From: Paraburkholderia sp. BL23I1N1
GTDB lineage: Bacteria; Pseudomonadota; Gammaproteobacteria; Burkholderiales; Burkholderiaceae
Length of the DNA: 64,000 nt
Assembly: GCF_003610295.1 (NCBI RefSeq)
Contig: NZ_RAPV01000001.1
Span: 992,001 to 1,056,000, forward strand
Reading direction: 5' to 3'
Below, in pieces: positions 38,636-64,000 of the stretch (its first letter is position 1; the number at the start of each line of letters is the position of its first letter). The position numbers and the translations under genes are program-made. Under the pieces are notes generated by a model that saw only the letters and a program-made list of their open reading frames with translations, was not told where the DNA came from and searched no databases.

Positions 38636-41074
38636 ATGAGACAGACAGGCGCACTGGGCGGAAAGCCGGCTAAGGGAGGGCAGACGGAGGCTTCGTTGCG
38701 GCCGCCTCAGAGGACGCTGCGGAGTCAAAGGATGCTGCCGCTTCGAATGGCGCGATCGCCGCTTGGAGAAGCGTGGCGCGCCGGTGCGGGTGCCGTGTTG
38801 GTGACGGCTGCACTGTTGATGTCCGCGTGCGCCGACGCAAGCTCCACGACGGGCGATGCGGCATCCGCACCGTCGACACAGGCGAGCGCGTCAGTGAACG
38901 CCGTGAGCAATAACGATGGCCCGCTGACCGCAAAATCGCAGCCGGATGTGGGACTCGCCGCCAATGCCACGAACGCCGTCAACGGCGCGAACAGCGCAAC
39001 CACCGCCAGCGCCGATCAACCCGCCTCCGCATCACGTCCCGCGCTCGAACTCGCCAAGTCTAAACAACTGGCTGCCGAACAGAGCGTTGCCGCACGCGTG
39101 CCCTCTGCGAGTGGCATGACCGAAAAGCGCATCCGTCCGTTGACGCTGCGCGATTCCGGCATCGACGGTTCGTTGATGTTCGCGCGCGACGTCGACTTTC
39201 GCGTGACAGGCGACATCGGTTTCATGATTCACGACATGGCGGCGACGCTGACTCCTTCGCGCGCCGGTCAGCCGATCGTGTTCGACGATCCGACGGCAGT
39301 GACGATCAACGTGCACCGCGGCGAGGTCACGCTCGACAGTGCCAAGCTCACGGCGATTTTCAACCGTTATCTGTTCCAGTACCAGGGCTCGCCGCTGCGC
39401 AATATGCGTGTCGTGCCGCAAGACGGCGGCACCTTGCGCATCACGGGTGAAATGCATCGCGACACCTGGGTGCCGATCGTGCTGACCGGCTCGCTGTCGA
39501 TGCGTAACACTGACGATCTCGTGTTCCATGCCGACCACGTCGAAGTGGCCGGTGTTGGCGCCGACAAGTTGATGCAGGCCGCGCACGTGAAGATGGCCGA
39601 CCTGTTGAAGGTGGACACCCCGATCGCGCGTCTGGAGGGCGACGATGTTGTGATGCAGGTCGCCAAACTCACGCCGCCGCCCGCGTTGCGCATGACGATC
39701 ACAAAGATCGACACCAGTGCCGCGAGCGTGCGCTTCACGCTCGACGACCACACGATTCAGAAAATAGACTGGCCCGCGACGATGCCGCCGCGCGGCATGC
39801 TGGTGCAGGGTGGCGACGTGAAGTTCATGCGTTCGATACCGATGAACATTGACATGGCGCTGACGCCGCTCGATAAGAACGCGCCGTTCGTATTCGACCT
39901 GTACCACTACCGCGACCAGATGGCGGCCGGCTACTTCACCTTTGACGAGGCGGGCGCTCTGGACGTGCATCTCCCATCATATACGACTTTAGCCAGCGCG
40001 ATGAAAGATGTCCCGCTGCAGACGGGCAGCGCGAGCGCGCGTTTTAACGACAGCATCATTCGTGCGCAACAGGCGTCGCTTGCGCAGGCGCGTCTCGTGT
40101 GGCAACAGGTGCCGCAGACATTGCAGACCGCGTCGGTTGCACGCGCGATTCCGGTTGGCACACGAGCGGCGTTTTCCGGTCGCAGCATGGCGACGCCTGG
40201 TTCCGCGATCAGTGACGAGCGGCATTCGTCCGGACCTGCACCGTTGATTCACGTCGAAAATGTGGACTTCTACGTATCGGGCCGAATCGGTTTTCATGTA
40301 CGTTCGCTGGACGCGCAGATGGTGCCGAAGAAGCCGGGGCAACCGGTCGATCTAGATGACCCTGATCAGTATGACATTCGGATCATTGGCGGCGAGGTGA
40401 TTGAACCGTGGCCTGCGATGGCGGCGTTGTTCAACGATTACCTGCTCGACTATGAACCGCGTTCGCTGAACGATTTGCAGTTGAAGCCGGTGGACGGGAA
40501 GTTGGAAGTGTCGGGCGGGATCAAGTTATGGGATCATTTTCCTGGCGTGTGGCTGCCCACGACGATGAGCGGCACGATCGTGGCGAAGGATGAGCGGCAC
40601 CTTGTCTATGAACCGACTTCGGTGAAGGTGCTGGGGGTGCCGCAGGCGGGGTTGTTGCGGGCGTTGGATATTCCGTTGGCGTCGTTGACGCCTTTTACGC
40701 GCAAGGGTGTTGCGTTGAAGGGTAACGAGTTGGTGTTCGATCAATATACGGTGTTTCCGCCGCCGGTTTTGCAAGGGCGGCTCGCGAGTGCAACGGTGAC
40801 CGATGAAGGGTTGGTGTTGAAGTTCAAGCGTGATGGTTCGGTGGTTGCTGCGAGGCCGCCTGTCGGCGCTGGGAAGAGTTTTGTCTGGATCGAGTCTGGG
40901 GATGTGAAGATGTTTAATTCGTTGGTCACGAATGCCAGGACTTTTATTCGCGATAGTTCTAATCCTGGGGTGATGAGGTTTGATCTTTATGGGTATAGGA
41001 GGGATGTTTCCAAGGGGACTGTGAGGATGGGGGAGGATGGTGGGTTAGAGGTTGATCTTGCCGCTAGGAAATAA
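38636..41074 (+). CDS. Large lipoprotein with duplicated domain, unknown function
   Basis: 812 aa. AGGAGGAG precedes the ATG at 38636. After a basic N-terminus, a hydrophobic segment ends in LLMSAC, a likely lipobox about 60 residues in, followed by a 100-residue Ala/Ser/Thr/Asn-rich linker. Two related domains follow: about 175-370 (VDFRVTGDIGFMIHDMAATL ... TPPPALRMTITKID) and about 535-730 (VDFYVSGRIGFHVRSLDAQM ... FPPPVLQGRLASATV). Both share the order V-F-V-G-IGF, a D-DP loop, IxGGEV/VxRGEV and a PPP-L turn. No known family; an extended beta fold on the periplasmic face is a guess. The last 600 bp are strongly G/T-rich. Confidence 0.75.
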   Translation: MRQTGALGGKPAKGGQTEASLRPPQRTLRSQRMLPLRMARSPLGEAWRAGAGAVLVTAALLMSACADASSTTGDAASAPSTQASASVNAVSNNDGPLTAKSQPDVGLAANATNAVNGANSATTASADQPASASRPALELAKSKQLAAEQSVAARVPSASGMTEKRIRPLTLRDSGIDGSLMFARDVDFRVTGDIGFMIHDMAATLTPSRAGQPIVFDDPTAVTINVHRGEVTLDSAKLTAIFNRYLFQYQGSPLRNMRVVPQDGGTLRITGEMHRDTWVPIVLTGSLSMRNTDDLVFHADHVEVAGVGADKLMQAAHVKMADLLKVDTPIARLEGDDVVMQVAKLTPPPALRMTITKIDTSAASVRFTLDDHTIQKIDWPATMPPRGMLVQGGDVKFMRSIPMNIDMALTPLDKNAPFVFDLYHYRDQMAAGYFTFDEAGALDVHLPSYTTLASAMKDVPLQTGSASARFNDSIIRAQQASLAQARLVWQQVPQTLQTASVARAIPVGTRAAFSGRSMATPGSAISDERHSSGPAPLIHVENVDFYVSGRIGFHVRSLDAQMVPKKPGQPVDLDDPDQYDIRIIGGEVIEPWPAMAALFNDYLLDYEPRSLNDLQLKPVDGKLEVSGGIKLWDHFPGVWLPTTMSGTIVAKDERHLVYEPTSVKVLGVPQAGLLRALDIPLASLTPFTRKGVALKGNELVFDQYTVFPPPVLQGRLASATVTDEGLVLKFKRDGSVVAARPPVGAGKSFVWIESGDVKMFNSLVTNARTFIRDSSNPGVMRFDLYGYRRDVSKGTVRMGEDGGLEVDLAARK

Positions 41075-41075
41075 C

Positions 41076-41199
41076 GGTTTTTTGCCAGCTCGGCGCTTGG
41101 TTTGTCTGTGTTTTTATGGTGTTGGCCTTTCCTTGCTTTGTTAGTGGTCTATTAGCGTTGCCCCTGTGCGGGGCGGCACTCACTTCTCTTTGCGGCCGG
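41076..41199 (+). repeat. Palindromic repeat locus 1, left arm
   Basis: Begins GGTTTTTTGCC two bases after the lipoprotein stop and contains the shared core GTTGGCCTTTCCTTG...GCCCCTGTGCGGGGC and ACTTCTCTTTG. It matches in inverted orientation the arm at 42476-42610. Confidence 0.85.
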
Positions 41200-42475
41200 T
41201 GTATAGACCGGGGACATGGTTGACAGACGTGCGGGGACATCATTGACACTTTATGGTCAGTGATTTTCGTTCCTCAGGTCAAGGGTGAGGATGCGATGGT
41301 GGGCAAACCAGAATTCAAATACGCCGTCCTCACCCTGCTTTGCGCGGGCCGCAACCGGCAGCCCATAAAGTGCTTTCGAGACCCTGAGGCGCCGTCCCTC
41401 AAAGCGTAGCTGGCCATTCGATTTGACCCGCAGCACCACGTCATCCGGGCCGTACTCCGGCTCCTGCAGGATCGAGGGATACGCCCGGGGGCTCGGCCGG
41501 TAGCGACTGATCGGCGTGTCCATACCGATCGCCTCATGCGGGCGCTCGCAGCTATAGACGGTGCGCCAGCGGTCCAGTTCGTGTTGCACGTGCTGCTGGG
41601 TGGCGAAGCTTCGTTCGTTCAGTACTTCAGCCTTCAGCGTACGGTGAAACCGCTCGTCCTTGCCGTTGGTCTGCGGGTGGTAAGGCCGGCTGTAACTGAT
41701 GCGGATACCCAGCCGGATCAGCCAGACGGCCAGACGGCCAGCTCGGTGAGTTGCCCCGGACTGCCGGGCGAACCCCACGGCGAGCCGTTATCGGTGTTGA
41801 TGCGCAACGGCAAACCGTAGTGCCCGAACGCTTCCCGTAACCCCGCCTGCACGGTTGCGGTATCGGTTGGCCCACAGGCGCGCAGCAGGATGCTGAAGCG
41901 CGAGTGGTCGTCGAGCACGGTCAGGGGATTTCAACGCCCTTCCTGAAGGGTCTCGAAGTGTCCCTTGAAATCCATCTGCCAGAGTACGTTGGGCTGCTCG
42001 TGCTCAAAGCGCTTCCAGGGTTCGCTCATCGCGGAATCGGCCGGCAGGATCAGGTTGTGCCGGTGCAGGATGTCGGTCACGGTGCTGGGCTGTGGCGCCG
42101 CCTCAAAGCCCAGATCCCGCAGGCGTCGGCTGATCTTGCGCCCACCCCAACGCGGATGTGCCTGACGCAGCCGCACCACTTCCTGCTCCATCGCAGCGGG
42201 TGTCTTCGAGGGACTGCTGGCAGGGCGTCGGGATTGATCTGACAGCGCATTCTCGCCGCGCCTGAGCCATTTGTAGCCGGTCTGCCGGCTGATGTTAAAG
42301 CGCTGGCACAGCTCGGTGATCGTCAGCGTGTCCTGACTGGCCAGATGAACAAATTCCTCTCGGAGGCTCATGGTGTCTCTTGCGTTCCAGGGCATGGTTG
42401 GGACCGGGCGTTTTAATACCCGGAAGTGTCAACCATGTCCCCGCACACCTGTCAGCCATGTCTCCGGTCTATACA
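41200..42475 (-). mobile_element. IS481-family insertion sequence at the centre of repeat locus 1
   Basis: 1276 bp. Ends begin TGTATAGACCGG and are inverted over about 50 bp with few mismatches (ending TTGACAC on both sides). Flanked by CGGCCGG (41193-41199 and 42476-42482), the probable 7-bp target duplication. Joining the flanks gives CTTCTCTTTG-CGGCCGG-CAAAGAGAAG, so the target was the exact centre of a palindrome. Confidence 0.88.
41257..42395 (-). pseudogene. IS481 family transposase, doubly inactivated
   Basis: The minus-strand protein starts at 42395 with a helix-turn-helix (LTITELCQRFNISRQTGYKW) and continues into an rve integrase core (DDHSRFS, NTDNGSPWG, SYSRPYHPQTNGKDERFHRT with the catalytic Glu). 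It is broken twice: an in-frame TGA after QEGR (41931-41933) and a tandem duplication of 8 bp (CCAGACGG at 41722-41729 and 41730-41737) that shifts the frame after ELAVW. Removing the extra 8 bp restores the frame. The element cannot make its own transposase. Confidence 0.9.
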
Positions 42476-42610
42476 CGGCCGGCAAAGAGAAGTAGGTGCC
42501 GCCCCGCACAGGGGCGACGCGAATAGACCACTAACAAAGCAAGGAAAGGCCAACACCGCAGGCATACAGACGCAAAAGCGCCCCGCAGGCAGCCAAATCA
42601 AGAAAACCCC
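42476..42610 (-). repeat. Palindromic repeat locus 1, right arm
   Basis: Inverted match of the left arm: CAAAGAGAAG, GCCCCGCACAGGGGC, CAAGGAAAGGCCAAC, then further C/A-rich sequence to about 42610. It ends 48 bp before the iolB stop codon. Confidence 0.85.
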
Positions 42611-42657
42611 ACCGCCGCAGGCACACAAAACGAACAAGCCCTCCGCAGGAAAACCCC

Positions 42658-43458
42658 TTAACTATCCTTATTAATAATCCACTCATGCGCCGGATCATTA
42701 CGAAAATGCCAGACGCGTTGTCCTCCCGCCATAACATTCAAATAATAAGACTCATACCCATAGGGAACAACCACAGGATGATACCCACGCGGCACCATCA
42801 CAACATCGTGATCCTCAACAGCCATCGACTCATCGATATCGCGCATATCCGTATACACACGCTGAAAAGCAAACCCTTGCGGCGGATCGAGCCGATGATA
42901 GTAAGTCTCCTCAAGCGAACTCTCATGAGGCACGTTATCCGTATCATGCTTATGCGGCGGATAGCTTGAAGCATGCCCACCGGGCGTCCTCACCTCAACA
43001 ACCAGCAAAGACTCCGCAAGCTCAGTCTGCGGAAGAATATCGCATACATATCGCGTATTCAGCCCTTTCCCGCGCGTGGAACGCTTCATAGAGGAAGGCT
43101 CGATCAACCTCGCGGGGTACGCGCCCTTGGCAGGCGCACTCGCCACACCAACCTCCGCATCGCGACAGGCGCGAACCGTCGTCCGCACGCCAGGCGGCAA
43201 ATACACCGCATACGGCGCGGAATCCTCGAACACGCTATCGCGCGAACCCAATGAACGCCACGTGGTGTCAGCCGTTTCAATATCCACCGCGCCTGTGAGC
43301 ACCACAATACACACCTCTCGCGAGGGCTCAAACACATGAACGACTTCATCCGCGCCCAGCCGGTAAGCGGCGAATCCCACATACCGCCAGCACGCCGACT
43401 CAGGCGTCACCCGCGCGATCGTCTGGCCTTCGCGCTGTCCCTTCACCAATAAACTCAT
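42658..43458 (-). CDS. iolB: 5-deoxy-glucuronate isomerase
   Basis: 266 aa. Cupin-type isomerase turning 5-deoxyglucuronate into 5-dehydro-2-deoxygluconate, the fourth step of inositol breakdown. Conserved SLLVVEVRTPGGHASSYPPH plus KHD carries the metal ligands; a second cupin half ends VMAGGQRVWHF. It overlaps iolE by 4 bp and is the last gene of the operon. Its 3' third is G/T-rich on the coding strand, next to repeat locus 1. Confidence 0.95.
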   Translation of the reverse strand: MSLLVKGQREGQTIARVTPESACWRYVGFAAYRLGADEVVHVFEPSREVCIVVLTGAVDIETADTTWRSLGSRDSVFEDSAPYAVYLPPGVRTTVRACRDAEVGVASAPAKGAYPARLIEPSSMKRSTRGKGLNTRYVCDILPQTELAESLLVVEVRTPGGHASSYPPHKHDTDNVPHESSLEETYYHRLDPPQGFAFQRVYTDMRDIDESMAVEDHDVVMVPRGYHPVVVPYGYESYYLNVMAGGQRVWHFRNDPAHEWIINKDS

Positions 43459-44381
43459 GCTGCCTCCTGCCCAATCTTGTCTCCGGCATCGAGCGGTGCA
43501 TCGACCAATGCTCGCAACGTCCGGAATCCTTTTTGCGCATAGTCGTACGATGGCGCCACCACCGGGTCCTGTTCCGCTTCAACCACGAGCCAGCCACGAT
43601 AACCATGCCGCTTCAATCGATCGATGATCGCCGGGAAGTTCACCGCGCCATCGCCCGGTACCGTGAATGCACCGTTGATCACCGCGTCGAGAAAACTCCA
43701 GTTCCGATTACGAGCCAGCTTCATCACCGCGGGTCGAACGTCCTTGCAGTGCACGTGGCATACGCGGCCAATGTGTTTGTCGAGCACCGCGAGCGGATCG
43801 CCACCCGCAAACGTGATGTGCCCTGCGTCAAATAATAGGCCGACGGCGTCGCTCGTGCGCGACATCAATTGATCGACGTCAGCGGGCGTTTCGACATACG
43901 CGCCCATGTGATGGTGGTACGCAAGCCGCACGCCGCGGCTTAACGTATAGCGAGCGAATTCGTCGACGCGCGCCGCATACGCGGCCCACTGCGCGTCGCT
44001 GAAAAAACGCGGTCGTTGATAGAGCGGTTGCGGTGCGCCCTGAATCGAATCGGCGACTTCGCCGTAGACCATCGCCGTCGCGCCGTTTTGCGCGAGCAGG
44101 TCGAGATGCGGGCCGACCGAGGCGATTTCCTCTTCCACGCTGCGTCGCGCGAGTCGTCCGGAGTACCAACCAGATACCAACGCCAGATCGTATTGAGCGA
44201 GCAGCGTCTTCAGCGCCTGCGGCTCGCGCGGAAACTTGTTGCCGAGCTCGAAGCCCTGATAGCCGATCTGGCGTCCTTCGGTCAGCGCGACCTCAAGCGG
44301 CGTTTCACCGCCGAGCGAAGGCAGATCGTCGTTCATCCACGATAAAGGGTTGATGCCGATACGTACGTCGAAAGCAGTCAT
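43455..44381 (-). CDS. iolE: Inosose (2-keto-myo-inositol) dehydratase
   Basis: 308 aa TIM-barrel of the AP-endonuclease-2/sugar isomerase type. N-terminal IGINPLSWMNDDLPSLGGET is the IolE hallmark; metal ligands lie in LAYHHHMGAYVETP, LLFDAGHITFAGGDP and HVHCKDVRP. Converts scyllo-inosose to a cyclohexane-1,2-dione. 12 bp after iolD. Confidence 0.95.
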   Translation of the reverse strand: MTAFDVRIGINPLSWMNDDLPSLGGETPLEVALTEGRQIGYQGFELGNKFPREPQALKTLLAQYDLALVSGWYSGRLARRSVEEEIASVGPHLDLLAQNGATAMVYGEVADSIQGAPQPLYQRPRFFSDAQWAAYAARVDEFARYTLSRGVRLAYHHHMGAYVETPADVDQLMSRTSDAVGLLFDAGHITFAGGDPLAVLDKHIGRVCHVHCKDVRPAVMKLARNRNWSFLDAVINGAFTVPGDGAVNFPAIIDRLKRHGYRGWLVVEAEQDPVVAPSYDYAQKGFRTLRALVDAPLDAGDKIGQEAA

Positions 44382-52944: not shown

Positions 52945-53953
52945 TGCAGTAAAGACGATTGACGTAGCCGTATTCGGCGCGGGACGCATCGGCAAGATTC
53001 ATGCGGCGAATCTGGCGCGGCAACCGGGCGTGCGGCTCAAGTATGTGGTCGACGTGAATCGCGAGGCGGCCGCGGCGCTGGCGGTCGAGCATGGCGCGCA
53101 GGTTGCGGATATCGATGGCGCGATGGGCGATGCGTCGATCGGCGCGACGGTGATCTGTTCGAGCACGGACACGCACGCGGATCTGATCGTGAAATCGGCC
53201 GCGCAGCAGAAACATGTGTTCTGTGAAAAACCGGTCGATCTGACTTTGGAGCGGGCGCGTGCCTGTGCCGAGGCGGTGGAATGTGCGGGCGTGGTTTGCA
53301 TGATCGGATTTCAGCGTCGCTTTGATCCGACCTTTTCCGCGTTGAAAGCACGCATCGACGCGGGTGAAATCGGCACGCCTGAAATGCTCGTGGTGACGAG
53401 CCGCGATCCGGGCGCACCGCCGGTCGAGTACATCAAGCACTCGGGCGGCATTTTCAAGGACATGCTGATTCACGACTTCGACATTTTCCGCTGGATTCTC
53501 GACGACGAGGCCGACACGCTGCACGCCACTGGCAGTTGTCTTTCCGATCCGGTGATTGCCGAAGCGGGCGATATCGATTCGACCGCGGTGACGATTCGCA
53601 CGAAGCGCGGCCGTCTGTGCCAGATCAACACCGCGCGGCGTGCGGCCTATGGGTACGACCAGCGCTTCGAGGTACTTGGCAGCACCGGCATGCTGCAGGC
53701 GGGCAACGTCCGGCCCACCGAAGTCACTGCATATTCGAAAACCGAAGTATCGAGCGACGTGCCCGAGGCGTTTTTCCTCGAGCGTTATCGCGCGGCGTAC
53801 GCATTGGAAATCGCGCATTTCTTCGACGCGGTGACGCGCGGCAAGCCGGTGCGAACCACCGTCGCCGACGGCCTGAAAGCGCTCGAACTCGCCGATGCCG
53901 CGACGCGCTCGTGGCGCGAGGGCCGCGCGGTGAAATTGGGTGAGGCATTGTGA
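52937..53953 (+). CDS. iolG: myo-Inositol 2-dehydrogenase
   Basis: 338 aa Gfo/Idh/MocA protein. N-terminal NAD-binding GAGRIGKIHAANLARQPGV, EKP motif in HVFCEKPVDLTLERA (catalytic Lys), and a C-terminal half with GGIFKDMLIHDFDIFRWIL carrying the D-x3-H pair. Makes scyllo-inosose, the substrate of IolE. The ATG at 52937 has GGAGG 6 nt upstream. Confidence 0.93.
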   Translation: MTDAVKTIDVAVFGAGRIGKIHAANLARQPGVRLKYVVDVNREAAAALAVEHGAQVADIDGAMGDASIGATVICSSTDTHADLIVKSAAQQKHVFCEKPVDLTLERARACAEAVECAGVVCMIGFQRRFDPTFSALKARIDAGEIGTPEMLVVTSRDPGAPPVEYIKHSGGIFKDMLIHDFDIFRWILDDEADTLHATGSCLSDPVIAEAGDIDSTAVTIRTKRGRLCQINTARRAAYGYDQRFEVLGSTGMLQAGNVRPTEVTAYSKTEVSSDVPEAFFLERYRAAYALEIAHFFDAVTRGKPVRTTVADGLKALELADAATRSWREGRAVKLGEAL

Positions 53954-54993
53954 TGAAGGCGACGGCTGGGCGGCTTCGTTTGGGCGTGGTGGGCTTGGGG
54001 CGTTTGGGCAAGCGTCACGCGGAGAATCTGGCGTATCGCGTGCCGGGGGCGGCGCTCGTGGCCGCTTGCAGTCCGGTGGACGAGGAGCGGGCGTGGGCGC
54101 GCGAGGCGCTGCCCGAACCGCGTCTTTACGACGATTACGCGGATCTGCTCGCCGATCGCGATGTGGATGCGGTGTGGCTCGTCACGCCGTCGTCGTTGCA
54201 CGCGCAGCAGATTATTGACGCGTTGCGTGCGGGCAAACATGTGTTCTGCGAGAAGCCGTTGTCGTTGGATCTTGCCGAGTGCGAGCGGGTATTGGCCGAG
54301 GCCGCACGTTATCCGCATTTGCAGGCGACTATCGGTTTTATGCGGCGTTTTGATCCGAGCTATAAGGATGCGTTCGACAAGATTCAGTCTGGTGTGATCG
54401 GCCGGCCTTTTCTTGTGCGCTCGCAGACTACTGACCAAAACGATGCCGATGGTTTTTTCGTGCGTTTCGCGGCAACCTCGGGTGGCATTTTTCTGGACTG
54501 CACCGTGCACGATATCGATGTCGCGCGATGGTTGCTTGGGAAGCCACGAGCCAAACGCGTGTTTGCGGCGGGCGCGGTTGCATTGCACGAGGGGCTGTGT
54601 GAATTCGGCGACGTCGATAATGGCGTGGCAATCTGCGAGTTCGAGGACGGGAAGCTTGCTATGTTTTATGCGTCGAGGACGCAGGCGCATGGGAATGATA
54701 CGAATAGCGAAGTGATTGGGACTTCTGGGGCGTTGGCCATAGGCCATAATCCGCGGGCGAATCGCGTTGAGATTTATGATGCCACAGGCGTTCGGAATGA
54801 ATGTACGCCGACGTTCTTTGATCGGTTTGAGGACGCGTTTTTGTATGAGGCGAGGGCCTTCGTCGCGGCGGTGCAGGGCGGTGCGGCATCGAATGCGCAA
54901 GCAGGCGCCACGATGGCCGATGCGCTTGAAGCGACTCGTATTGGGATGGCGTTGCGGCAGTCGCTGCAGAGTGGGGAGGCTGTTGTTTTGTAG
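53953..54993 (+). CDS. Second Gfo/Idh/MocA dehydrogenase (inositol-isomer type)
   Basis: 346 aa, sharing one base with the iolG stop (TGATG). Same fold: RLGVVGLGRLGKRHAENLAY, HVFCEKPLSLDLAECERVL, GGIFLDCTVHDIDVARWLLG. It probably oxidises another inositol stereoisomer (scyllo- or chiro-) so that it can enter the same pathway; the exact substrate is unknown. The last 300 codons drift to G/T-rich codons toward repeat locus 2. Confidence 0.88.
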   Translation: MKATAGRLRLGVVGLGRLGKRHAENLAYRVPGAALVAACSPVDEERAWAREALPEPRLYDDYADLLADRDVDAVWLVTPSSLHAQQIIDALRAGKHVFCEKPLSLDLAECERVLAEAARYPHLQATIGFMRRFDPSYKDAFDKIQSGVIGRPFLVRSQTTDQNDADGFFVRFAATSGGIFLDCTVHDIDVARWLLGKPRAKRVFAAGAVALHEGLCEFGDVDNGVAICEFEDGKLAMFYASRTQAHGNDTNSEVIGTSGALAIGHNPRANRVEIYDATGVRNECTPTFFDRFEDAFLYEARAFVAAVQGGAASNAQAGATMADALEATRIGMALRQSLQSGEAVVL

Positions 54994-55008
54994 TTAAGAG
55001 AGGTCTTA

Positions 55009-55228
55009 GGTTTTTTTGCCTTCGCGGCGCTTGTCTGTGTTTTTATGGTGTTGGCCTTTCCTTGATTTCTTATTGGTTTATTAGCGTTGCCCCTGTGCGG
55101 GGCAATGCTCTCAACTGATATGACTTTCCGTGTCAATCGGGATCGGTTTTCGTTTTCCATCCATAGGTGCGTGAATTTCCTGAGGGCGACGTAGCAGTAA
55201 GTCTCGACGGTGGATCACACTTCTATGA
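55009..55228 (+). repeat. Palindromic repeat locus 2, left arm
   Basis: 220 bp from GGTTTTTTTGCC to CTTCTATGA. The outer 90 bp match the other loci (GTTGGCCTTTCCTTGAT, GCCCCTGTGCGGGGC); the inner 120 bp are specific to this locus. Nearly perfect inverted match to 56758-56975. Confidence 0.9.
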
Positions 55229-55528: not shown

Positions 55529-56692
55529 TTAGGTTGACTTAAGGTGCGCGCCTTCGGGAATGACTCCGTCTTTCAGATAACGCCACAGCGCAATGGCAAG
55601 ACGTCGCGCTACCGCGACGATGGCGATGCGTCGCGCGCGTCGATTCGGCCCCGTGCCCTGTGTGCGCTGGCCAAACCATTTCGTTAATGCGCTGCCAGGC
55701 TGGTAGCGCAGCCAGGTCCATGCGATCTCGATCAGCAGCGCGCGTACCCGCCGGTTTCCCTGTTTGCTGATCCCCTGGTCGACCTGGCTTTCGCCGCTGT
55801 CGTAGGGCTGCGGCACCAGCCCGACGCACGCGCCGACTTCGCGGCGGTTGTTGAAGTCCCGCCAGAACAGTTCGAGGGCAAGGCGTGAAGCGCCTACTTC
55901 GCCAATCCCCTGCAGGCGCGCCAGCGCATCGCAACGCTGGCGCGCGTGTGCCGGTACGTTTGTCTGTCGCGTCTTCTCCAGCGCCGCAAGTTGCTGTTCG
56001 ACGAGTGCCAGCCGTTCGCACTCGCGCAGTAACCGCTCACGCATCTCGCACGGTAACGGCGCACCGTCGTGGCAGCGCACCTCCTCGCGCTCGAGCCGGC
56101 CGGCGAAGGTCCGGTGATCGACCGCATCCCAGCAGCCGAGCGTGGCCGGCAGCTTGCGCATCCGGTCGCGGTGCTGCAGGACTTCCTTCTGCAGTTGCCC
56201 GCGCTCGCGCATCAACTGGCGCGATGCCTCGTCCTCCGGTGACGGCACGTGCACCACGTGCACCACGTGCATGGGGTCGCGCTCGCCGCGCAGCCACGCG
56301 CGCAGGTTGATGACGAGCTTGATCACATCGAGCCGGTCGGTCTTGGCGCGCCGCTGATGGCGTTCGACCGGAATGCTTGCCGGATCGACAACATAGCACT
56401 CGATGTGTCGACGCTGCAGCGCGCGACAGATCCAGAACGCATCCTGCCCTGCCTCATAGCTCACGACGACTCGCACGTCTGCCGGCAATGACCACTTCTC
56501 CTTGTGTGCCTCGATCAGGTCCAGCACCGCCTGCAGACGCGCCGCGGCCTGCGGTTGTGCGACCGTGTGCACGGCCGGCTTCTCGCGCCGGCCGTCGTGA
56601 AGCGCGACTTTCCATTTGGCCGCCGCGAGTTCCAGCGACACTGCCAGCACCGGTACGTCGCCACTACCCGTATATGCCTGATCGGTACGCAT
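55529..56692 (-). CDS. IS110 family transposase (bridge-RNA-guided recombinase type)
   Basis: 387 aa. N-terminal RuvC-like DEDD domain: the opening VLAVSLELAAAKWKVALHDG has Glu where the first Asp is usual, then VVVSYEAGQDAFWICRAL and HQRRAKTDRLDVIKLV. A coiled coil follows (about 200-255), then the C-terminal Tnp_20 domain (LQGIGEVGASRLALELFW; QPYDSGESQVDQGISKQGNR with the catalytic Ser). Intact, so possibly active. Confidence 0.92.
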   Translation of the reverse strand: MRTDQAYTGSGDVPVLAVSLELAAAKWKVALHDGRREKPAVHTVAQPQAAARLQAVLDLIEAHKEKWSLPADVRVVVSYEAGQDAFWICRALQRRHIECYVVDPASIPVERHQRRAKTDRLDVIKLVINLRAWLRGERDPMHVVHVVHVPSPEDEASRQLMRERGQLQKEVLQHRDRMRKLPATLGCWDAVDHRTFAGRLEREEVRCHDGAPLPCEMRERLLRECERLALVEQQLAALEKTRQTNVPAHARQRCDALARLQGIGEVGASRLALELFWRDFNNRREVGACVGLVPQPYDSGESQVDQGISKQGNRRVRALLIEIAWTWLRYQPGSALTKWFGQRTQGTGPNRRARRIAIVAVARRLAIALWRYLKDGVIPEGAHLKST

Positions 56693-56757
56693 GATGTTCT
56701 CCTGTGAACAAACCTCAGCACGCTAATTTTAGGCCTCAGCTTGTCGAGGGCCTCGCT

Positions 56758-56975
56758 TCATAGAAGTGTGATCCACCGTCGAGACTTACTGCTACGTCGC
56801 CCTCAGGAAATTCACGCACCTATGGATGGAAAACGAAAACCGATCCCGATTGACACGGAAAGTCATTTCAGTTGAGAGCATTGCCCCGCACAGGGGCAAC
56901 ACTAATAAACCACTAACAAATCAAGGAAAGGCCAACACCATAAAAACACAGACAAGCGCCGCGAAGGCAAAAACC
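56758..56975 (-). repeat. Palindromic repeat locus 2, right arm
   Basis: Inverted copy of the left arm, differing at only a few positions (for example TTAGTGG vs TTATTGG). It ends about 70 bp before the valS start. Read through in frame it would add a spurious N-terminal extension to ValRS. Confidence 0.9.
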
Positions 56976-57007
56976 GCCCCCCAAAGCCCCCCGCGCGCAG
57001 CGCCCCT

Positions 57008-57013
57008 TATAAT
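57008..57013 (+). promoter_or_regulatory. Putative -10 box of valS
   Basis: TATAAT 35 bp upstream of the valS ATG, in otherwise C/A-rich DNA just outside repeat locus 2. No matching -35 box is seen at 17 bp. Confidence 0.45.
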
Positions 57014-57047
57014 CGAGCATTCTCCGCATCCACCAGCAGACCGACAA

Positions 57048-59927
57048 ATGAGCGAGACCCCGAGCGACACCACCTCTACGCTTGCCAAAAGCTTCGAGCC
57101 CCACACCATCGAAGCCCACTGGGGCCCCGAATGGGAAAAGCGCGCCTACGCGGCGCCAAGCTTCGACGAGAACAAAAAAGACTTCTCGATCCAGCTCCCG
57201 CCGCCGAACGTCACTGGCACCCTGCACATGGGCCACGCGTTCAACCAGACGGTCATGGACGGCCTCACCCGCTATCACCGCATGCTCGGCGAAAACACCC
57301 TGTGGGTGCCGGGCACGGACCACGCGGGCATCGCCACGCAAATCGTCGTCGAACGCCAGCTGGACGCCCAAGGCGTCTCGCGCCACGATCTCGGCCGCGA
57401 AAAATTCACCGAACGCGTCTGGGAATGGAAGCAGCAATCCGGCTCGACCATCACGAATCAGGTGCGCCGACTGGGCGCGTCGATCGACTGGTCGCGCGAA
57501 TATTTCACGATGGACGACAAAATGTCGGCCGCCGTGCGCGACGTGTTCGTACGCCTGTATGAACAGGGTCTGATCTATCGCGGCAAGCGCCTCGTGAACT
57601 GGGACCCGGTGTTGCTTACCGCCGTCTCCGACCTCGAAGTGGTCAGCGAAGAAGAAAACGGCCACCTCTGGCACATCCAGTATCCGCTCACGGACGGCTC
57701 CGGCCATCTGACGGTCGCCACCACGCGCCCGGAAACCATGCTCGGCGACACCGCCGTGATGGTTCATCCGGAAGACGAACGCTACGCGCACCTGATCGGC
57801 AAAACCGTCACGCTGCCGCTCTCCGGCCGCGAAGTCCCGATCATCGCCGACGGCTACGTCGATCGCGAATTCGGCACCGGCGTGGTCAAAGTTACGCCCG
57901 CACACGATTTCAACGACTATCAGGTCGGCCTGCGCCACAAGCTGCCGATGATCGAAATCCTCACGCTCGCCGCGAAGATCAACGACAACGCGCCGGGAAC
58001 ATACCGGGGTCTGGACCGTTTCGAAGCCCGCAAGCAGGTCGTGATGGACCTCGAAGCGCTCGGCGCACTCGAATCGGTCAAGCCGCACAAGCTGATGGTG
58101 CCGCGCGGCGACCGCACGGGCGTCGTGATCGAGCCGATGCTGACGGACCAGTGGTTCGTCGCGATGAGCAAGCCGGCGCCGGAAGGCACCTTCAATCCGG
58201 GCAAATCGATCGCTGAAACCGCACTGGACGTGGTTCGCAGCGGCGAAATCAAATTCGTGCCGGAGAACTGGAGCACCACGTACTACCAGTGGCTCGAAAA
58301 CATCCAGGACTGGTGTATCTCGCGCCAACTCTGGTGGGGCCATCAGATCCCGGCGTGGTACGGCGAAAACGGTGAAATCTTCGTCGCCAAGACCGAAGAA
58401 GGCGCGCGCGAGAAGGCCGCCGAGGCCGGTTACACGGGCTCGCTCAAGCGCGACGAAGACGTGCTCGACACGTGGTTCTCATCGGCACTGGTGCCGTTCT
58501 CGTCGCTCGGCTGGCCAGCCGAAACGCCTGAGCTGAAACACTTCATGCCCTCGTCGGTGCTGGTCACTGGCTTCGACATCATTTTCTTCTGGGTCGCACG
58601 CATGGTCATGATGACCACGCACTTCACGGGCAAGGTGCCGTTCGACACGGTCTACGTGCACGGTCTCGTGCGCGACGCCGAAGGCCAGAAGATGTCGAAG
58701 AGCAAGGGTAATACGCTCGATCCGATCGATATCGTCGACGGCATCGACCTCGACGCGCTGGTTGCCAAGCGCACCACCGGTCTGATGAATCCGAAGCAGG
58801 CTGCGTCGATCGAAAAGAAAACCCGCAAGGAATTCCCGGACGGCATTCCGGCGTTCGGTACGGATGCGCTGCGCTTCACCATGGCGTCGATGGCCACGCT
58901 CGGCCGCAACGTCAACTTCGACCTCGCGCGCTGCGAAGGCTATCGCAACTTCTGCAACAAGCTGTGGAATGCGACCCGTTTCGTGCTGATGAATTGCGAA
59001 GGCCACGATTGCGGTTTCGGCAAACCCGAGCAATGCGGCGAGTGCGGCCCGGACGGCCACCTGAATTTCTCGGCGGCCGACCGCTGGATCGTGTCGCGCC
59101 TGCAACGCGTGGAAGCCGAAATCGCCAAGGGTTTCGCCGACTATCGTTTTGACAATGTGGCCAACGCCCTATACAAGTTCGTGTGGGACGAATACTGTGA
59201 CTGGTATCTCGAACTCGCCAAGGTTCAGATCCAGACGGGTCTGCCGAACCAGCAGCGCGCAACACGCCGCACGCTGCTGCGCGTACTCGAGACGGTGTTG
59301 CGCCTCGCGCATCCGGTGATTCCGTTCATTACCGAAGCGTTGTGGCAAAAAGTTGCGCCATTGGCGGCCCGTTACCCCGAAGGCAAAGCCGAGGGCGAGG
59401 CGTCCATTATGGTGCAGCCCTACCCCATTGCAGAACCGTCGAAGATCGACGAAGACGCGGAGCAATGGGCGGCCGACCTGAAGGCAGTGATCGATGCGTG
59501 CCGGAATCTGCGCGGCGAGATGAATCTGTCGCCGGCGGTCAAGGTGCCGTTGCTCGCTACTGGCAACGCGGAGCGCTTGCGCACCTTCGCTGCGTACGCT
59601 CAGGCATTGGCGCGTTTGTCGGAGGTCCGGATCATGACCGACGAGGCAACTCTGGATGCGCAAGCAGATGGCGCGCCAATTGCTATCGTAGGCAACGACA
59701 AGCTAGTGCTGAAGGTGGAAATCGACGTCGCTGTGGAGCGCGAGCGTCTGTCGAAAGAGATTACGCGGCTTGGCATCGAGGTCACCAAGTGCAATGCCAA
59801 GTTGCAGAATGAAAGCTTTGTTGCAAAGGCCCCGCCGACGGTCGTTGAGCAGGAGCAGAAAAGACTGGCAGAATTCGAAATGACTATCGGCAAGCTGAAG
59901 GCCCAATTGGCTCGTTTGCCAGCCTGA
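57048..59927 (+). CDS. valS: Valyl-tRNA synthetase
   Basis: 959 aa, normal length. HIGH motif in [18 protein letters not shown] (about 45-60), [13 protein letters not shown], editing (CP1) domain with [25 protein letters not shown] in [14 protein letters not shown] (about 545), and a C-terminal coiled-coil arm. The start at 57048 is chosen because the 74 open codons upstream are the repeat arm. Its first 300 bp are unusually C/A-rich for a plus-strand gene. Confidence 0.97.
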
Positions 59928-60000
59928 TCGACGCTCCGTGTCCGCCCCATTGTGGGCTGGCGCGGATCAAATGCTAAACCAGAGGATTCAGGGTAATCAC

Positions 60001-60882
60001 ATGCTAAAAGTTACAAAGGCAGTCTTTCCAGTAGCAGGTCTTGGCACCCGGTTCCTCCCTGCCACGAAGGCGAGCCCGAAGGAGATGCTGCCGATCGTCG
60101 ACAAGCCGCTGATTCAATACGCGGTGGAAGAGGCAATGGCGGCCGGCATCACTGAAATGATCTTTGTCACGGGCCGCAGCAAGCGCGCGATCGAGGACCA
60201 TTTCGATAAGTCATACGAAATCGAGGCGGAACTCGAGGCGCGTGGCAAGCAAAAGTTGCTGGAACTGGTGCGCAGCATCAAGCCGAGTCATGTGGATTGC
60301 TTCTACGTGCGTCAGCCGGAAGCGCTCGGCCTCGGCCATGCGGTGATGTGCGCCGAAAAGCTGGTGGGCGACAACCCGTTCGCCGTCATCCTCGCGGACG
60401 ACTTGCTGTACGGCACGCCGCCCGTGATGACGCAAATGATCGAGGTGTTCGACCACTATCACAGCTCGGTGATCGGCGTGGAAGAGATCCCGGCGGCGGA
60501 GACCAAGTCGTACGGCATCGTCGACGGCAAGGAGTGGGAAGACTCGATCATCAAGATGTCGGGCATCGTCGAAAAGCCGGAGCCGACTGTTGCGCCGTCG
60601 AATCTCGGCGTGGTGGGCCGCTATGTGCTGAAGCCGCGGATCTTCGAACATCTGCGCGCGCTGAAGCCGGGCGCGGGTGGCGAATTGCAGCTGACGGACG
60701 CGATTCAATCGCTGCTCGCCGATGAACAGGTGCTGGCGTACAAGTACCACGGCACGCGGTTCGACTGCGGCAGCAAGCTGGGTTATCTGAAGGCGACGGT
60801 CGAGTTCGCGCTGCGTCACCCGGAAGTGGCAGCGGATTTCGAAGAGTATTTGCGTACCCGTTCGCCGGTGCTGGAAGGCTGA
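60001..60882 (+). CDS. galU: UTP-glucose-1-phosphate uridylyltransferase
   Basis: 293 aa. Makes UDP-glucose for LPS, exopolysaccharide and galactose use. Nucleotide-binding signature FPVAGLGTRFLPATKASPKE at the N-terminus, EALGLGHAVMCAEKLVGDNP and VILADDLLYGTPP (metal Asp), EKPEP and GRYVLKP. ATG at 60001 matches the family N-terminus. 73 bp after valS, possibly co-transcribed; a strong terminator follows. Confidence 0.95.
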   Translation: MLKVTKAVFPVAGLGTRFLPATKASPKEMLPIVDKPLIQYAVEEAMAAGITEMIFVTGRSKRAIEDHFDKSYEIEAELEARGKQKLLELVRSIKPSHVDCFYVRQPEALGLGHAVMCAEKLVGDNPFAVILADDLLYGTPPVMTQMIEVFDHYHSSVIGVEEIPAAETKSYGIVDGKEWEDSIIKMSGIVEKPEPTVAPSNLGVVGRYVLKPRIFEHLRALKPGAGGELQLTDAIQSLLADEQVLAYKYHGTRFDCGSKLGYLKATVEFALRHPEVAADFEEYLRTRSPVLEG

Positions 60883-60950
60883 GCAACTGGGTAGTCGCGC
60901 AGAATTCCTTGCGCTGTTAGCCTCTCGTTGATACACGTCAGTCAGACGTT

Positions 60951-60997
60951 AAAAAGGCGCTGTGTCCCGGATTTGCGGGTACAGCGCCTTTTGTTTT
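60951..60997 (+). terminator. Bidirectional rho-independent terminator after galU
   Basis: Stem AAGGCGCTGT (60954-60963) / ACAGCGCCTT (60981-60990) with inner CCCG/CGGG, followed by TTGTTTT on the plus strand and preceded by AAAAA, so it also serves the convergent tusA-like gene. Confidence 0.9.
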
Positions 60998-61149
60998 GGG
61001 GGGCCGAGGAACACCGTTTAGTGGAGCCTGCCTACGGGGCGCGCGGCCAGGAGTGGTTGGCCAGGGGCGTCTCTCACCGGGGACGCCTCTTGTCGCGCGT
61101 GACTCGGTGCGTGAGGTTTTCTTCACACGCGAGCTTTGATACGCGTATT

Positions 61150-61383
61150 TCAGCGTCGCTTCATCAGAAACGTGAAAATCTTGTCGTGTACTGAGCTTTC
61201 GACGATTTCGTTGCCGGTTTGCTTGGCGAACGCGGCGAAATCGCGCTGCGAGCCGGGATCGGTGGCAAGCACTTTGAGAATCTGGCCGCTTTCCATGTCG
61301 GCGAGCGCTTTCTTGGCGCGCAAAATGGGGAGCGGGCACATCAGCCCGCGCGCATCGACTTCCTTGTGAATCTGAATTTGCAT
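61150..61383 (-). CDS. TusA/SirA-like sulfurtransferase
   Basis: 77 aa. The sulfur-carrier motif CPLP is in VDARGLMCPLPILRAKKALA, with the reactive Cys near residue 16. TusA-type proteins pass persulfide sulfur from IscS to tRNA thiolation and other uses; several paralogues exist in such genomes, so the exact partner is open. The start at 61383 is chosen because AAGGTC precedes it and the fold begins at once. Convergent with galU. Confidence 0.9.
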   Translation of the reverse strand: MQIQIHKEVDARGLMCPLPILRAKKALADMESGQILKVLATDPGSQRDFAAFAKQTGNEIVESSVHDKIFTFLMKRR

Positions 61384-61536
61384 CGACGATGACCTTCGGG
61401 AGGGGGCGTCGTTGCGCGACGCCGGACAGAGGGTCAAATTCTACAGCAGGCGGGGGGGTGGCGCCGGGAGCGGTCCGGTTTGGCCTTTTCTTGAATTGGT
61501 TGCCTACTCGGTGCTTTTTGTCTACATGCCCGCGGC

Positions 61537-61746
61537 GTTGGCCTTTCCTTGATTTGATATTGGTTTATTAGCGTCGCCCCTGTGCGGGGCGGCACTCACT
61601 TCTCTTTGCCTGCCGCAAAGAGAGGCAAGAGAAAGCGGCTCAAACCGCTAATTCTTAAGCGGGTCCCCCGCGCAGATGCGGTAGTGGTGCATCTGGAATC
61701 TGTGTTCTCGCACATTCCGCGGTAGTGACAAGGCAGTCATACTTCC
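61537..61746 (+). repeat. Palindromic repeat locus 3, left arm
   Basis: 210 bp from GTTGGCCTTTCCTTG through GCCCCTGTGCGGGGC and CTTCTCTTTGCCTGCCGCAA to GGCAGTCATACTTCC. Inverted match to 62078-62289 at roughly 90% by eye. It also contains short hairpins (CTCTTTGC/GCAAAGAG; GCGG..CCGC). Confidence 0.88.
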
Positions 61747-62077
61747 CGCCTCGCACTACGTGCTCGCCGGAAGGGGCCGCTCCGAACCGCCGGATTCGAT
61801 TGGCTTGGGTGGGGGCCTTCGGCCACGCGCTGAAAACGTCGGATGGCCGCGGGAGTACCGCCGGGTGTCCGAGCGGCTAGCGGCCACTTGCGCACCCCTA
61901 ACACCCGAAGCGGCCATCGGCCCAAAGAAGTTGCGGTAAGCGCGTGATAGCTGGTGGTTGCCGAATTTCCGCTAAGGGCCGGCAACACCTGCGGCTTGAC
62001 GGCGCGGGGCGAGGCATCGGCAATAGCCGATAGCCCACGGTTTGATGAACTACCGCGTCGGCGCGCGCAGCGCCGCC
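61747..62077. repeat. Core of repeat locus 3
   Basis: About 330 bp between the arms with no IS. A 120-codon minus-strand frame spans it (62099 to 61737) but begins and ends inside the arms and lacks a ribosome binding site and domain, so I do not call a gene. Many short GC inverted repeats (for example GGCCGATGGCCGC-like stretches near 61905-61925). This locus may show the uninterrupted form of the element. Confidence 0.55.
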
Positions 62078-62289
62078 GGAAGAATGACTGCCTTGTCACT
62101 CACGCGGAGTGTGCGAGAACACAGATTCCAGATGCACCACTACCGTGGCTGCGCGGGGGACCCGCTTAAGGGTTAGCGGTTTGAGCCGCTTTCTCTTGCT
62201 TCTCTTTGCGGCAGGCAGGCAAAGAAAAGTAGGTTGCCCCGCACAGGGGCAACGCTAATAAACCAATAAGAAAACAAGGAAAGGCCAAC
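62078..62289 (-). repeat. Palindromic repeat locus 3, right arm
   Basis: Inverted partner of 61537-61746; begins GGAAGAATGACTGCC and ends AAGGAAAGGCCAAC. The following 100 bp up to the helicase start are C/A-rich. Confidence 0.88.
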
Positions 62290-62394
62290 CCCGCAGGCGA
62301 ACAACCAAAAAGCGCCGCACAGGCAAAAACCGCAAAAAAACCCTAACCCCGCAGGGGCATATAATATCGAACGCCCTCGCCGTCCTCCCAAAAA

Positions 62395-64000
62395 ATGCCC
62401 GATCTGCTAGCCAATCTAAACCCCGAACAACACGCTGCCGTCACGCTCCCCAACGAGCCAGCGCTCATCCTTGCAGGCGCGGGCAGCGGCAAAACCCGCG
62501 TCCTCATCACGCGGATCGCGTGGCTCATCCAGCACGGCCTCGCGTCACCCGCCACCATCCTGGCGGTGACCTTCACCAATAAAGCCGCCCGCGAAATGAT
62601 GTCGCGTCTGTCGGCACTCTTGCCCATCGACACACGCGGCATGTGGATTGGGACCTTCCACGGCCTGTGCAACCGCATGCTCCGCGCGCACCATCGCGAC
62701 GCAGGCCTGCCCGCCACCTTCCAGATCCTCGATACCGCGGACCAGCTCTCCGCGATCAAGCGCCTCATGAAGGGCCTCAACATCGACGATGAAAAGTACC
62801 CGGCGAAAAACCTCCAGTACTTCATCAACAATTCCAAAGAACAAGGCCTGCGGCCGAAAGACGTCGACGCCACGGATAACTTCAACCGCAAATTCGTCGA
62901 ACTCTACGAAGCCTACGACCAGCAATGCCAGCGCGAAGGCGTCGTCGACTTTCCGGAACTGCTGCTGCGCTGCTTTGAACTGCTCGCGCACAACCCGCCG
63001 CTGCGCGCCCACTATCAGGCGCGCTTCAGGCACATCCTCGTCGACGAGTTCCAGGACACCAACAAGCTGCAATATGCGTGGCTGAAGTTGCTGGCCGGGC
63101 AGACCAACTCGATCTTCGCCGTCGGCGACGACGACCAGTCGATCTACGCGTTTCGCGGCGCGAACGTCGGCAACATGCGCGACTTCGAACACGAGTTCAA
63201 CGTCCGGCACATGATCAAGCTGGAACAGAACTACCGCTCGCACGGCCATATCCTCGACGCGGCCAATCAACTGATCGCCAACAACTCGCGGCGTCTGGGC
63301 AAGAATCTGCGTACCGACGCGGGTCACGGCGAACCGGTACGCGTCTACGAGTCCGCCACCGATACACAAGAAGCCGGCTGGATCGTCGAGGAAATCAAGG
63401 CGCTGATCAGCACCGGCACGTCGCGCAGCGAAGTCGCCATCCTGTATCGCAGCAACGCGCAGTCGCGCACCATCGAACACACGCTGGTCAACGCGGGCAT
63501 CGCGTACCGGGTGTACGGCGGTCTGCGCTTTTTCGAACGTCAGGAAGTCAAGCACGCGCTCGCCTATTTGCGCCTGATCGACAATCCGAACGACGACACC
63601 GCGTTCGCCCGCGTCGTCAATTTCCCCACGCGCGGCATCGGCGCGCGCTCGATCGAGCAACTGGCCGATGCGGCGCGTCTGTACAACTGCTCGATGGCTG
63701 CGGCAATTCCGTATGTCGCGGGCAAGGCGGGGTCGAGCCTGGCGAGTTTCGCGAACCTGATCGGCAGGATGCGCGCGGAAACGCAGCAGATGAGCCTGCC
63801 GGAAACGGTCGAATACGTGGTTAGCACGAGTGGTCTCACGGAGTTCTATCAGAACGAACGCGAAGGCCAGGATCGGCTCGAGAATTTGCAGGAACTGGTC
63901 AACGCGGCGGCGGCTTTCGTCAGCGAAGAAGGCTACGGCATGGATACGCCGGCGCGCTCGATTCCGCTGCGCCCGGGCACAACCGCGGCGCCCGAGTTGG
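62395..64000 (+). CDS. uvrD: UvrD/Rep/PcrA-type DNA helicase, C-terminus outside window
   Basis: 535 codons seen, open to the window end. Superfamily 1 3'-5' helicase: motif I LILAGAGSGKTRVLITRI, Ia TFTNKAAREMM, II ILVDEFQDTNKLQYAWLKLL, III VGDDDQSIYAFRGAN, IV LEQNYRSHGHILDAANQLI. The order and the DDDQ spelling fit UvrD; Rep is the alternative. It acts in mismatch and nucleotide excision repair. The first 150 bp are C-rich/G-poor beside repeat locus 3. AT-rich ATAATAT sits at about 62361. Confidence 0.93.
   Translation, partial: MPDLLANLNPEQHAAVTLPNEPALILAGAGSGKTRVLITRIAWLIQHGLASPATILAVTFTNKAAREMMSRLSALLPIDTRGMWIGTFHGLCNRMLRAHHRDAGLPATFQILDTADQLSAIKRLMKGLNIDDEKYPAKNLQYFINNSKEQGLRPKDVDATDNFNRKFVELYEAYDQQCQREGVVDFPELLLRCFELLAHNPPLRAHYQARFRHILVDEFQDTNKLQYAWLKLLAGQTNSIFAVGDDDQSIYAFRGANVGNMRDFEHEFNVRHMIKLEQNYRSHGHILDAANQLIANNSRRLGKNLRTDAGHGEPVRVYESATDTQEAGWIVEEIKALISTGTSRSEVAILYRSNAQSRTIEHTLVNAGIAYRVYGGLRFFERQEVKHALAYLRLIDNPNDDTAFARVVNFPTRGIGARSIEQLADAARLYNCSMAAAIPYVAGKAGSSLASFANLIGRMRAETQQMSLPETVEYVVSTSGLTEFYQNEREGQDRLENLQELVNAAAAFVSEEGYGMDTPARSIPLRPGTTAAPEL

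Follow-up and report, generated by a model that had tools for sequence, protein, structure and literature searches.

REP/BIME elements, in which a RAYT transposase gene is flanked by the repeats, are dispersed palindromic repeats of bacteria. Three other systems bear comparison with the element considered here. At human meiotic break hotspots (PRDM9/SPO11), C>N and A>N changes mark the forward strand to the left and their complements mark the right within ~2 kb, a pattern ascribed to resected single strands (PMC7615360). In Escherichia coli, a long palindrome is cleaved by SbcCD (PMC3315005, PMC8386832). The Rfam family RF02421 (Bp1_684) is a predicted small RNA (sRNA) candidate of Burkholderia pseudomallei, with reverse-transcription PCR support there (PMC3521395). 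Here, we describe a directional repeat unit in Paraburkholderia sp. BL23I1N1, present as three palindromic loci in a 64,000-nucleotide stretch (the window; bases 992001-1056000 of contig C1 in a 9.12-Mb genome of 4 contigs), whose outer flank carries a gradient of guanine-cytosine (GC) skew.

The element resembles each of these systems and departs from each. As at the human hotspots, the same strand loses C and A, here over ~1 kb; those hotspots are programmed, eukaryotic and two-sided, whereas here the pattern belongs to a bacterial repeat, is one-sided at each unit and is known from sequence alone, and A>N is in excess there, whereas A>G does not depend on the element at the one gene tested here. 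As with the E. coli palindrome, inverted repeats would be sites of damage and rearrangement, but single units suffice here, canonical SbcD falls below its cut-off, and the effect is greatest right beside the unit, with no surplus on the origin-proximal side. REP/BIME elements are likewise dispersed extragenic palindromic repeats, sometimes in opposed pairs (PMC2817692, PMC3733652), but REPs span 20-40 bp (PMC3733652), against ~310 bp for the present unit. RF02421 matches the core and outer arm of the unit; it was described as an sRNA, and the accessible text of PMC3521395 contains "repeat" and "palindrom" 0 times each and does not mention skew. This was the only paper on Bp1_Cand684 that turned up in the literature searched, which (preprints and most subscription papers lying outside its scope) showed no account of such skew in bacteria, none of this repeat as a dispersed element, and no paper for four 15-base words of the repeat.

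The repeat unit and the skew beside it

The unit is recognized by a 15-base core, GCCCCKGTGCGGGGC, with 40 forward and 40 reverse matches in the genome and 0 for the reversed control. It is directional and ~310 bp long, comprising an outer G/T-rich arm of ~100 bp, the 15-bp hairpin core and an inner part of ~200 bp. Adjacent exact cores no more than 5 kb apart form 23 pairs head to head and 1 pair in the opposite arrangement, and 22 units have no partner inside 4 kb, two mismatches being tolerated. In 15 of these 22 solitary units, similarity among copies stops 199-247 bp from the core start, while in the other 7 it reaches further in (2) or stops earlier or not at all (5). From these limits the unit is taken as ~310 bp and the palindrome as a unit pair; the palindromic loci are two units placed head to head. 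The core and inner part of the unit may be able to fold.

All 80 exact-core arms, covered by 55 fetched genome stretches, were compared, copies with a changed core being left out. On the strand running toward the core, 150-900 bp out, G exceeds C in 77 of 80 arms and T exceeds A in 73, and 90% of arms exceed the 95th percentile of 4000 random control windows (control standard deviation 0.064). From 4-5 kb to 100-200 bp, pooled frequencies on this strand change from.313 to.181 for C,.187 to.306 for T,.188 to.138 for A and.312 to.375 for G, and G/C skew declines away from the core, its length constant being 554 +/- 33 bp. Hence what a first-pass annotation had noticed at three loci, and proposed to follow up at every copy in the genome and against controls, holds for nearly all copies and is general in relatives as well. 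Far from any arm, none of 278 unit-free gene gaps (49 convergent, 50 divergent, 179 tandem) has both flanks above 0.15.

The sign of the skew follows the unit, and gene direction alters its size only. At fourfold-degenerate sites (686 genes predicted by a home-made caller), the skew is +.677 at 100-200 bp vs +.049 at 4-5 kb in genes heading toward the unit, and +.373 vs -.025 in those heading away from it, bearing out the earlier claim that gene direction does not set the skew. These genes bear directly on an explanation by transcription, in which transcripts running into the unit would expose the coding strand, through transcription-associated mutation or R-loops before a terminator. The nearest outer gene runs toward the unit in 54 of 79 arms and such genes are more strongly skewed, as this explanation would have it, but genes read away, valS and uvrD of the window among them, are skewed in the same sense and against their own coding strand, and the skew of both is higher where the element is present (inner-clade p.0026 for valS and.064 for uvrD, see below). 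With the wrong sign in outward genes, transcription is disfavoured, and we rate it the least probable of the readings considered here.

The first-pass annotation placed the change of sign at the centre of each palindromic locus. The flip is real between opposed units, but the palindrome centre is not its source, as solitary units suffice. On their outer side G exceeds C in 22 of 22 units at both 120-300 and 300-600 bp (skew.283 and.220); on the inner side the G/C skew at matching distances is -.053 and -.059, and the T/A skew, at +.154 and +.036, does not follow it. The fourfold excess corrected for gene direction (units with <20 informative sites left out) is +.338 outside, as seen in all 12 units that had enough sites. 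Inside it is -.169, with negative values in 15 of 17 units (p.0026), and -.159 at 1-2 kb. The result is replicated by 14 solitary units of a second species, G319, whose loci may in part be orthologous to those of the window genome: +.417 outside (11/11) and -.114 inside, where 7 of 10 units are negative (p.064). Of 20 candidate units in that species, 6 were dropped for a partner or a truncated arm. Thus, a single unit is strongly one-sided, where a resected break would be expected to act on two sides around one site, and the two opposed arms that cleavage of a palindrome by SbcCD would need are dispensable in both species.

No effect of spacer length or of a partner on the outer skew is seen (p 1.0 and.17), the mean being.214 for spacers <800 bp (n 34),.197 for longer ones (n 12) and.179 for arms with no exact mate (n 34). 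Three of the 80 arms have a skew of zero or below (the arm at 11695 in stretch L048 and those in L077 and L083), and a fourth, in L054, reaches just 0.02. The outer arms in L077 and L083 are truncated, and both were left out of the solitary-unit and copy-comparison sets.

The window loci, their relatives and the substitution spectrum

The features of the three loci in the window, in order of position, are as follows (unit boundaries from the 80-arm alignment).

40160..41060, plus strand: locus 1 left flank with gradient, the 3' end of the gene 38471-41074; GC skew.53,.32,.33,.12,.05 per 200-bp step outward
41061..41174, plus strand: locus 1 left unit, outer G/T-rich arm and core (41160-41174); the insertion shortens its inner part
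41198..42476 (ends approximate), minus strand: IS481-like insertion between the locus 1 units, with the transposase in two open frames, 41257-41778 (rve_3) and 41931-42395 (HTH_32)
42501..42615, minus strand: locus 1 right unit, core (42501-42515) and outer C/A-rich arm
42616..43516, minus strand: locus 1 right flank with gradient; GC skew -.35, -.17, -.18, -.22, -.25 per 200-bp step
42658-43458, minus strand: KduI/IolB-family gene in the locus 1 right flank (Pfam PF04962)
53950..54993, plus strand: locus 2 left flank, GFO/IDH/MocA-family oxidoreductase gene with a polarised C>T excess in its last 600 bp
54990..55103, plus strand: locus 2 left unit, outer arm and core (55089-55103)
55013-55228 and 56758-56973: inverted arms of locus 2
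55529..56692, minus strand: IS110-family transposase gene between the locus 2 units (Pfam PF02371)
56883..56997, minus strand: locus 2 right unit, core (56883-56897) and outer arm
57048..59927, plus strand: locus 2 right flank, valS, read away from the unit, its first 1 kb skewed against its own reading direction
60576..61465, plus strand: locus 3 left flank with gradient; GC skew.16,.11,.15,.14,.17 per 200-bp step
61159-61386, minus strand: tusA in the locus 3 left flank (PF01206)
61466..61790 (end approximate), plus strand: locus 3 left unit, outer arm, core (61576-61590) and inner part
61498..61605, minus strand: Rfam RF02421 (Bp1_684) match covering core and outer arm in the locus 3 left unit, 50.2 bits against a gathering score of 44
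62036..62360 (start approximate), minus strand: locus 3 right unit, inner part, core (62236-62250) and outer arm
62361..63250, plus strand: locus 3 right flank with gradient; GC skew -.27, -.23, -.17, -.13, -.10 per 200-bp step
from 62395, plus strand: UvrD-like gene in the locus 3 right flank, read away from the unit, similar to a recB-type helicase model and presumably encoding a helicase

At these loci, the nine base counts made by hand in the first-pass annotation are all exact and its gene directions to the right (leftward at locus 1, rightward at loci 2 and 3) are as stated, and the T/A skew parallels the G/C skew at all three, with T>A on the left and A>T on the right. The best named matches of ValS are Paraburkholderia polaris, P. 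fynbosensis and P. terricola, at 97%, 96% and 95% identity.

Around valS, 53 stretches of relatives contain 65 arms, all 65 with the same skew and many of them orthologous, hence not independent (L086 was dropped as the same region as L177). In a second genus (g10) 40 of 42 arms are skewed, as are 28 of 30 from more distant relatives within the own genus, some arms being neighbours at one locus; 3 of the 20 second-genus stretches (L251-L253) gave no arm under the search pattern.

The skew is associated with the element among relatives. Fourfold skew in the nearest 500 bp was compared at four gene flanks around loci 2 and 3, and at every one it is higher with an adjacent element:.467 (n=12) vs.216 without it (n=33) at the oxidoreductase gene,.255 (n=29) vs.115 (n=23) at valS,.259 (n=20) vs.126 (n=22) at uvrD, and.297 (n=11) vs.187 (n=37) at galU. 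The element-free rows include outgroups, which widens the gap. Within the inner clade, rows without the element have.237 (26),.179 (14),.200 (12) and.206 (28) in the same order, giving p values of 3.6e-5,.0026,.064 and.0092 for rows that share ancestry. Rows with an arm and no core were counted apart (2, 1, 4 and 3 rows), and element-free rows with <1000 bp in view were left out. An earlier raw comparison of flank alignments gave.142 with the element and.082 where the relative lacks it. When traced on a tree built from the far part of valS, the state of the element switches 7 to 10 times, and independent tree pairs are on average concordant in 4.1, 1.8, 0.8 and 2.1 cases and opposed in 0.3, 0, 0 and 0 at the four flanks.

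One may argue that units enter places that are already skewed, or that the flank is selected for G/T-rich sequence. Four element-free relatives (L181, L184, L185 and L194) are indeed high at the oxidoreductase gene, and element-free rows lie above zero. In the clade of the window genome, however, this gene has a skew of.42 in the window genome and.56 in L166, both with the element, and.11-.13 in L167, L168, L170, L172 and L176 without it (L169 and L173, of the same clade and also element-free, have.30). Moreover, the 278 unit-free gene gaps show no comparable two-sided skew, and the four high-skew relatives are placed in element-bearing clades, where loss with a lasting scar is possible. Upstream of valS, L169 and L190 carry G/T-then-C/A remnants with no core, and we interpret such remnants, together with high skew in the absence of the element, as probable scars after element loss. 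Prior skew or selection on the flank appears very unlikely as the explanation.

The spectrum of changes was read over the last 600 bp of the oxidoreductase gene, as changes away from the element-free majority on the strand running 3' into the unit; rows below the identity limit and rows with an arm only were dropped, and the species counts share ancestry. The 12 species with the element have 177 C>T (G>A 26), 27 A>G (T>C 7), 59 C>G (G>C 28), 23 A>T (T>A 0) and 45 G>T (C>A 23), and the 27 species without it have 165 C>T (G>A 112), 61 A>G (T>C 28), 66 C>G (G>C 59), 21 A>T (T>A 5) and 39 G>T (C>A 28). Per site, the rates with and without the element are.136 and.054 for C>T,.045 and.022 for C>G,.027 and.011 for A>T, and.023 and.009 for G>T. 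Beyond 900 bp, element-bearing species have 29 C>T and 20 G>A. In single genomes, C>T stands to G>A as 13 to 2 in the window genome and 17 to 0 in L166, both with the element, and as 1 to 6 in L167, 4 to 5 in L168, 2 to 5 in L170, 3 to 9 in L172 and 3 to 3 in L176, all without it.

This spectrum and the pooled composition uphold the earlier claim that C is lost on the strand running 3' into the locus. Cytosine deamination, offered as the cause, would account for the foremost change, C>T, but not for the whole, as C>G, A>T and G>T are raised too. Measured against the C>N and A>N excess of human break hotspots, the composition fits for both C and A, and at this one gene C>T, C>G and A>T are raised with the element whereas A>G is not. 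The same polarised counts give no C>T excess with the element at valS (75 to 92) or uvrD (24 to 94), where we interpret the insertions as old; the comparison of spectra with relatives, suggested earlier, is thereby positive at the oxidoreductase gene only.

The non-coding copies of the unit tell a similar story. Per site, rates in the outer arm and core are.086 for C>T against.023 for G>A, and.053 for G>T against.006 for C>A; over the inner 225 bp the same pairs are.026 against.018 and.005 against.008 (of 78 copies, one outer arm and 27 inner parts were left out as unlike the consensus). The per-site ratio of C>T to G>A is 3.8 in the outer arm and 1.5 in the inner part, so the bulk of the asymmetry lies outside the core, whose invariance among copies is a product of hit selection. 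A finer-bin alignment, without 12 of 78 copies unlike the consensus, places the outer excess at -75 to -40 and -15 to 0.

Possible exposure of one strand and its origins

The likeness to the flanks of human meiotic breaks (PMC7615360) is the reason for taking the outer flank to be recurrently single-stranded; we infer single-strandedness as the cause of the gradient and resection from an end as its maker. The unit would mark a place where the strand running 3' into it is recurrently single-stranded for ~0.5-1 kb on the outer side. A nick or break near the core would be followed by 5'-to-3' removal of the other strand outward and then by refilling. The exposed DNA would take strand-specific damage, C>T foremost, so that the flank would lose C and A and gain T and G on that strand, and two head-to-head units would yield the flip of sign. 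We give recurrent exposure of one strand, from the unit core outward, by resection from a nick or break, a probability of roughly 45%. Resection from the core would be the simplest polar source, and a polymerase stall leaving a gap is its main rival.

Replication gaps were weighed by fork direction, which on C1 was deduced from the background skew of the fetched stretches. The skew is about equal for both directions: raw values at 120-300 bp are.269 on origin-proximal and.312 on origin-distal flanks. After background subtraction, skew at ~150-900 bp is.235 on distal (n 27) vs.144 on proximal flanks (n 31; Mann-Whitney p 7.5e-5), with p.051 for the same comparison at 16 paired loci; the raw values being close, this distal excess was given no weight. 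Fork stalling from the origin side only is rejected, as the origin-distal flank is at least as strong, opposite to prediction. In the more general form, a folded unit would stall a polymerase copying the inward-running strand from inside outward, on the leading or lagging side, and the template outside would stay single-stranded until refilled. Such gaps would expose the correct outer-side strand whichever way the fork moves and could plausibly reach ~1 kb, and the raw likeness of both flank kinds and the stronger background-subtracted distal flank agree with them; in addition, the core and inner part may fold, and hairpins would meet no canonical SbcD. Because both faces of a hairpin should act, however, a similar-sized opposite gradient would be expected inside, where it is weak: -.053 raw, and an excess of -.169 and -.114 in the two species vs +.338 and +.417 outside. 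We therefore regard replication gaps as rather unlikely.

The background GC skew of C1 (stretches L031-L032 and L047-L085) changes sign at 2.24-2.41 Mb, ~3.73 Mb and 5.4-5.7 Mb. It looks as if this one 6.98-Mb contig held two origin/terminus cycles, that is, two chromosomes fused or joined in assembly.

As to the enzymes, SbcCD, named in the first-pass annotation as one possible cause, finds little place in its canonical form: the best SbcD match in the window genome is partial, at 48 bits against a cut-off of 77.65. The cut-off is reached in 50 of 299 genomes of the family, 3 of them among the 33 with the exact repeat; within the two repeat-bearing genera, 3 of 33 genomes with the repeat and 6 of 46 without it reach the cut-off, so no association between SbcD and the repeat is seen, and this candidate was set aside. 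At L271:4644-8443 (C1 ~5.41 Mb), a metallophosphatase gene and, directly after it, a gene for an SMC-like ATPase make up a divergent pair of Mre11/Rad50 type, which makes a cousin of SbcCD possible. A RAYT nickase was likewise considered, and no link was found: the one Y1_Tnp gene in the genome has no unit arm in its 3.3-kb locus, and so is not a transposase flanked by the repeats.

RecB is present (826 bits), which agrees with resection from an end and also leads to a third possibility, that the unit acts as a Chi-like polar signal: RecBCD that set out from breaks elsewhere and arrives from the inner side would be switched there and leave a 3' tail outside. Polarity and strand would both be accounted for. 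Nevertheless, 40 + 40 exact cores in 9.12 Mb would be sparse if distant breaks had to reach the signal, and the E. coli Chi octamer GCTGGTGG and its look-alikes are not singled out near units (2nd of 168 permutations, with similar octamers equally frequent far away), although the species' own Chi may differ. We consider a Chi-like role improbable.

Several observations weigh against resection from the core. Breaks, nicks and single strands are deduced here from sequence. The arms at L048 11695 and L054 look intact yet lack skew. Inside solitary units, at 230-2000 bp, there is a weaker opposite G/C shift without a T/A shift, faint in G319, which a purely outward process leaves unexplained, and among unit copies a C>T excess also lies inside the unit at +60 to +120 (.083 and.037). 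A>G is not raised at the oxidoreductase gene (.032 per site with the element vs.031 without), nor does it exceed T>C in the outer arm of unit copies (.030 vs.040). Among relatives, the inner-clade difference at uvrD is not significant (p.064), the skew is low (.062) in three uvrD rows that keep an arm without a core, and independent tree pairs are too few for significance at any single flank. In 10 genomes of genus g12, the best-scoring RF02421 copy per genome has no skew beyond 200 bp. Finally, E. coli RecBCD, according to PMC8386832, would leave no RecA-coated tail between the break and Chi, and here the effect peaks beside the unit.

Distribution, rearrangement and implications

The exact repeat pattern occurs in 33 of 299 genomes of the family and 2 of 25 genera, with 110 core matches in the genome of one relative. 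Plasmid records matching one unit come from Paraburkholderia (9) and Caballeronia (9), by which the second genus may be Caballeronia. Among the six arms in window 40900-63000, RF02421 gives one match above the gathering threshold, that of locus 3, and 28 matches are listed in the window genome, some above and some below threshold. Draft contigs of relatives L170, L171, L177 and L200 stop a few hundred bases upstream of valS, at the repeat, which therefore breaks assemblies. Directly outside one unit, at L031 ~8972-9050, lies a run of the tetranucleotide CTGT. In 11 of 80 arms, the same 12 bases, AATGCTCTCAAC, directly follow the core (window 55104-56882; L032, L038, L042, L048, L053, L076). 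Insertion sequences, such as the IS110-like one in locus 2, behave as if they used the unit as a fixed target.

Gene order also differs at the units. In the window it runs oxidoreductase gene, locus 2, valS, galU, tusA, locus 3, uvrD, whereas outgroups and several relatives have uvrD upstream of valS, and tusA after the oxidoreductase gene. The valS-galU-tusA segment between loci 2 and 3 is thus inverted relative to several relatives (window 53950-63000 against L166-L205), with units at both borders. An inversion bordered by units would explain the change of order, and unit pairs at the borders of an inter-species inversion would fit recombination there.

Tentatively, and with less assurance than for strand exposure itself, the unit might be viewed as a polar initiation site of recurrent single-strand formation, a bacterial counterpart of a recombination hotspot, in which a nuclease or replication block at the core, ~1 kb of outward exposure, strand-specific mutation of neighbouring genes and inversions between copies come together. 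If so, dozens of natural sites per genome would record a DNA-processing event in their flanks, the length, strand and polarity of end or gap processing could be read from sequence in a non-model bacterium, and the sites for a direct look at ends or single strands are already named. For the genes nearby, such a repeat can accompany a shift in synonymous codons, valS and uvrD being among them, and local GC skew need not stem from replication or transcription.

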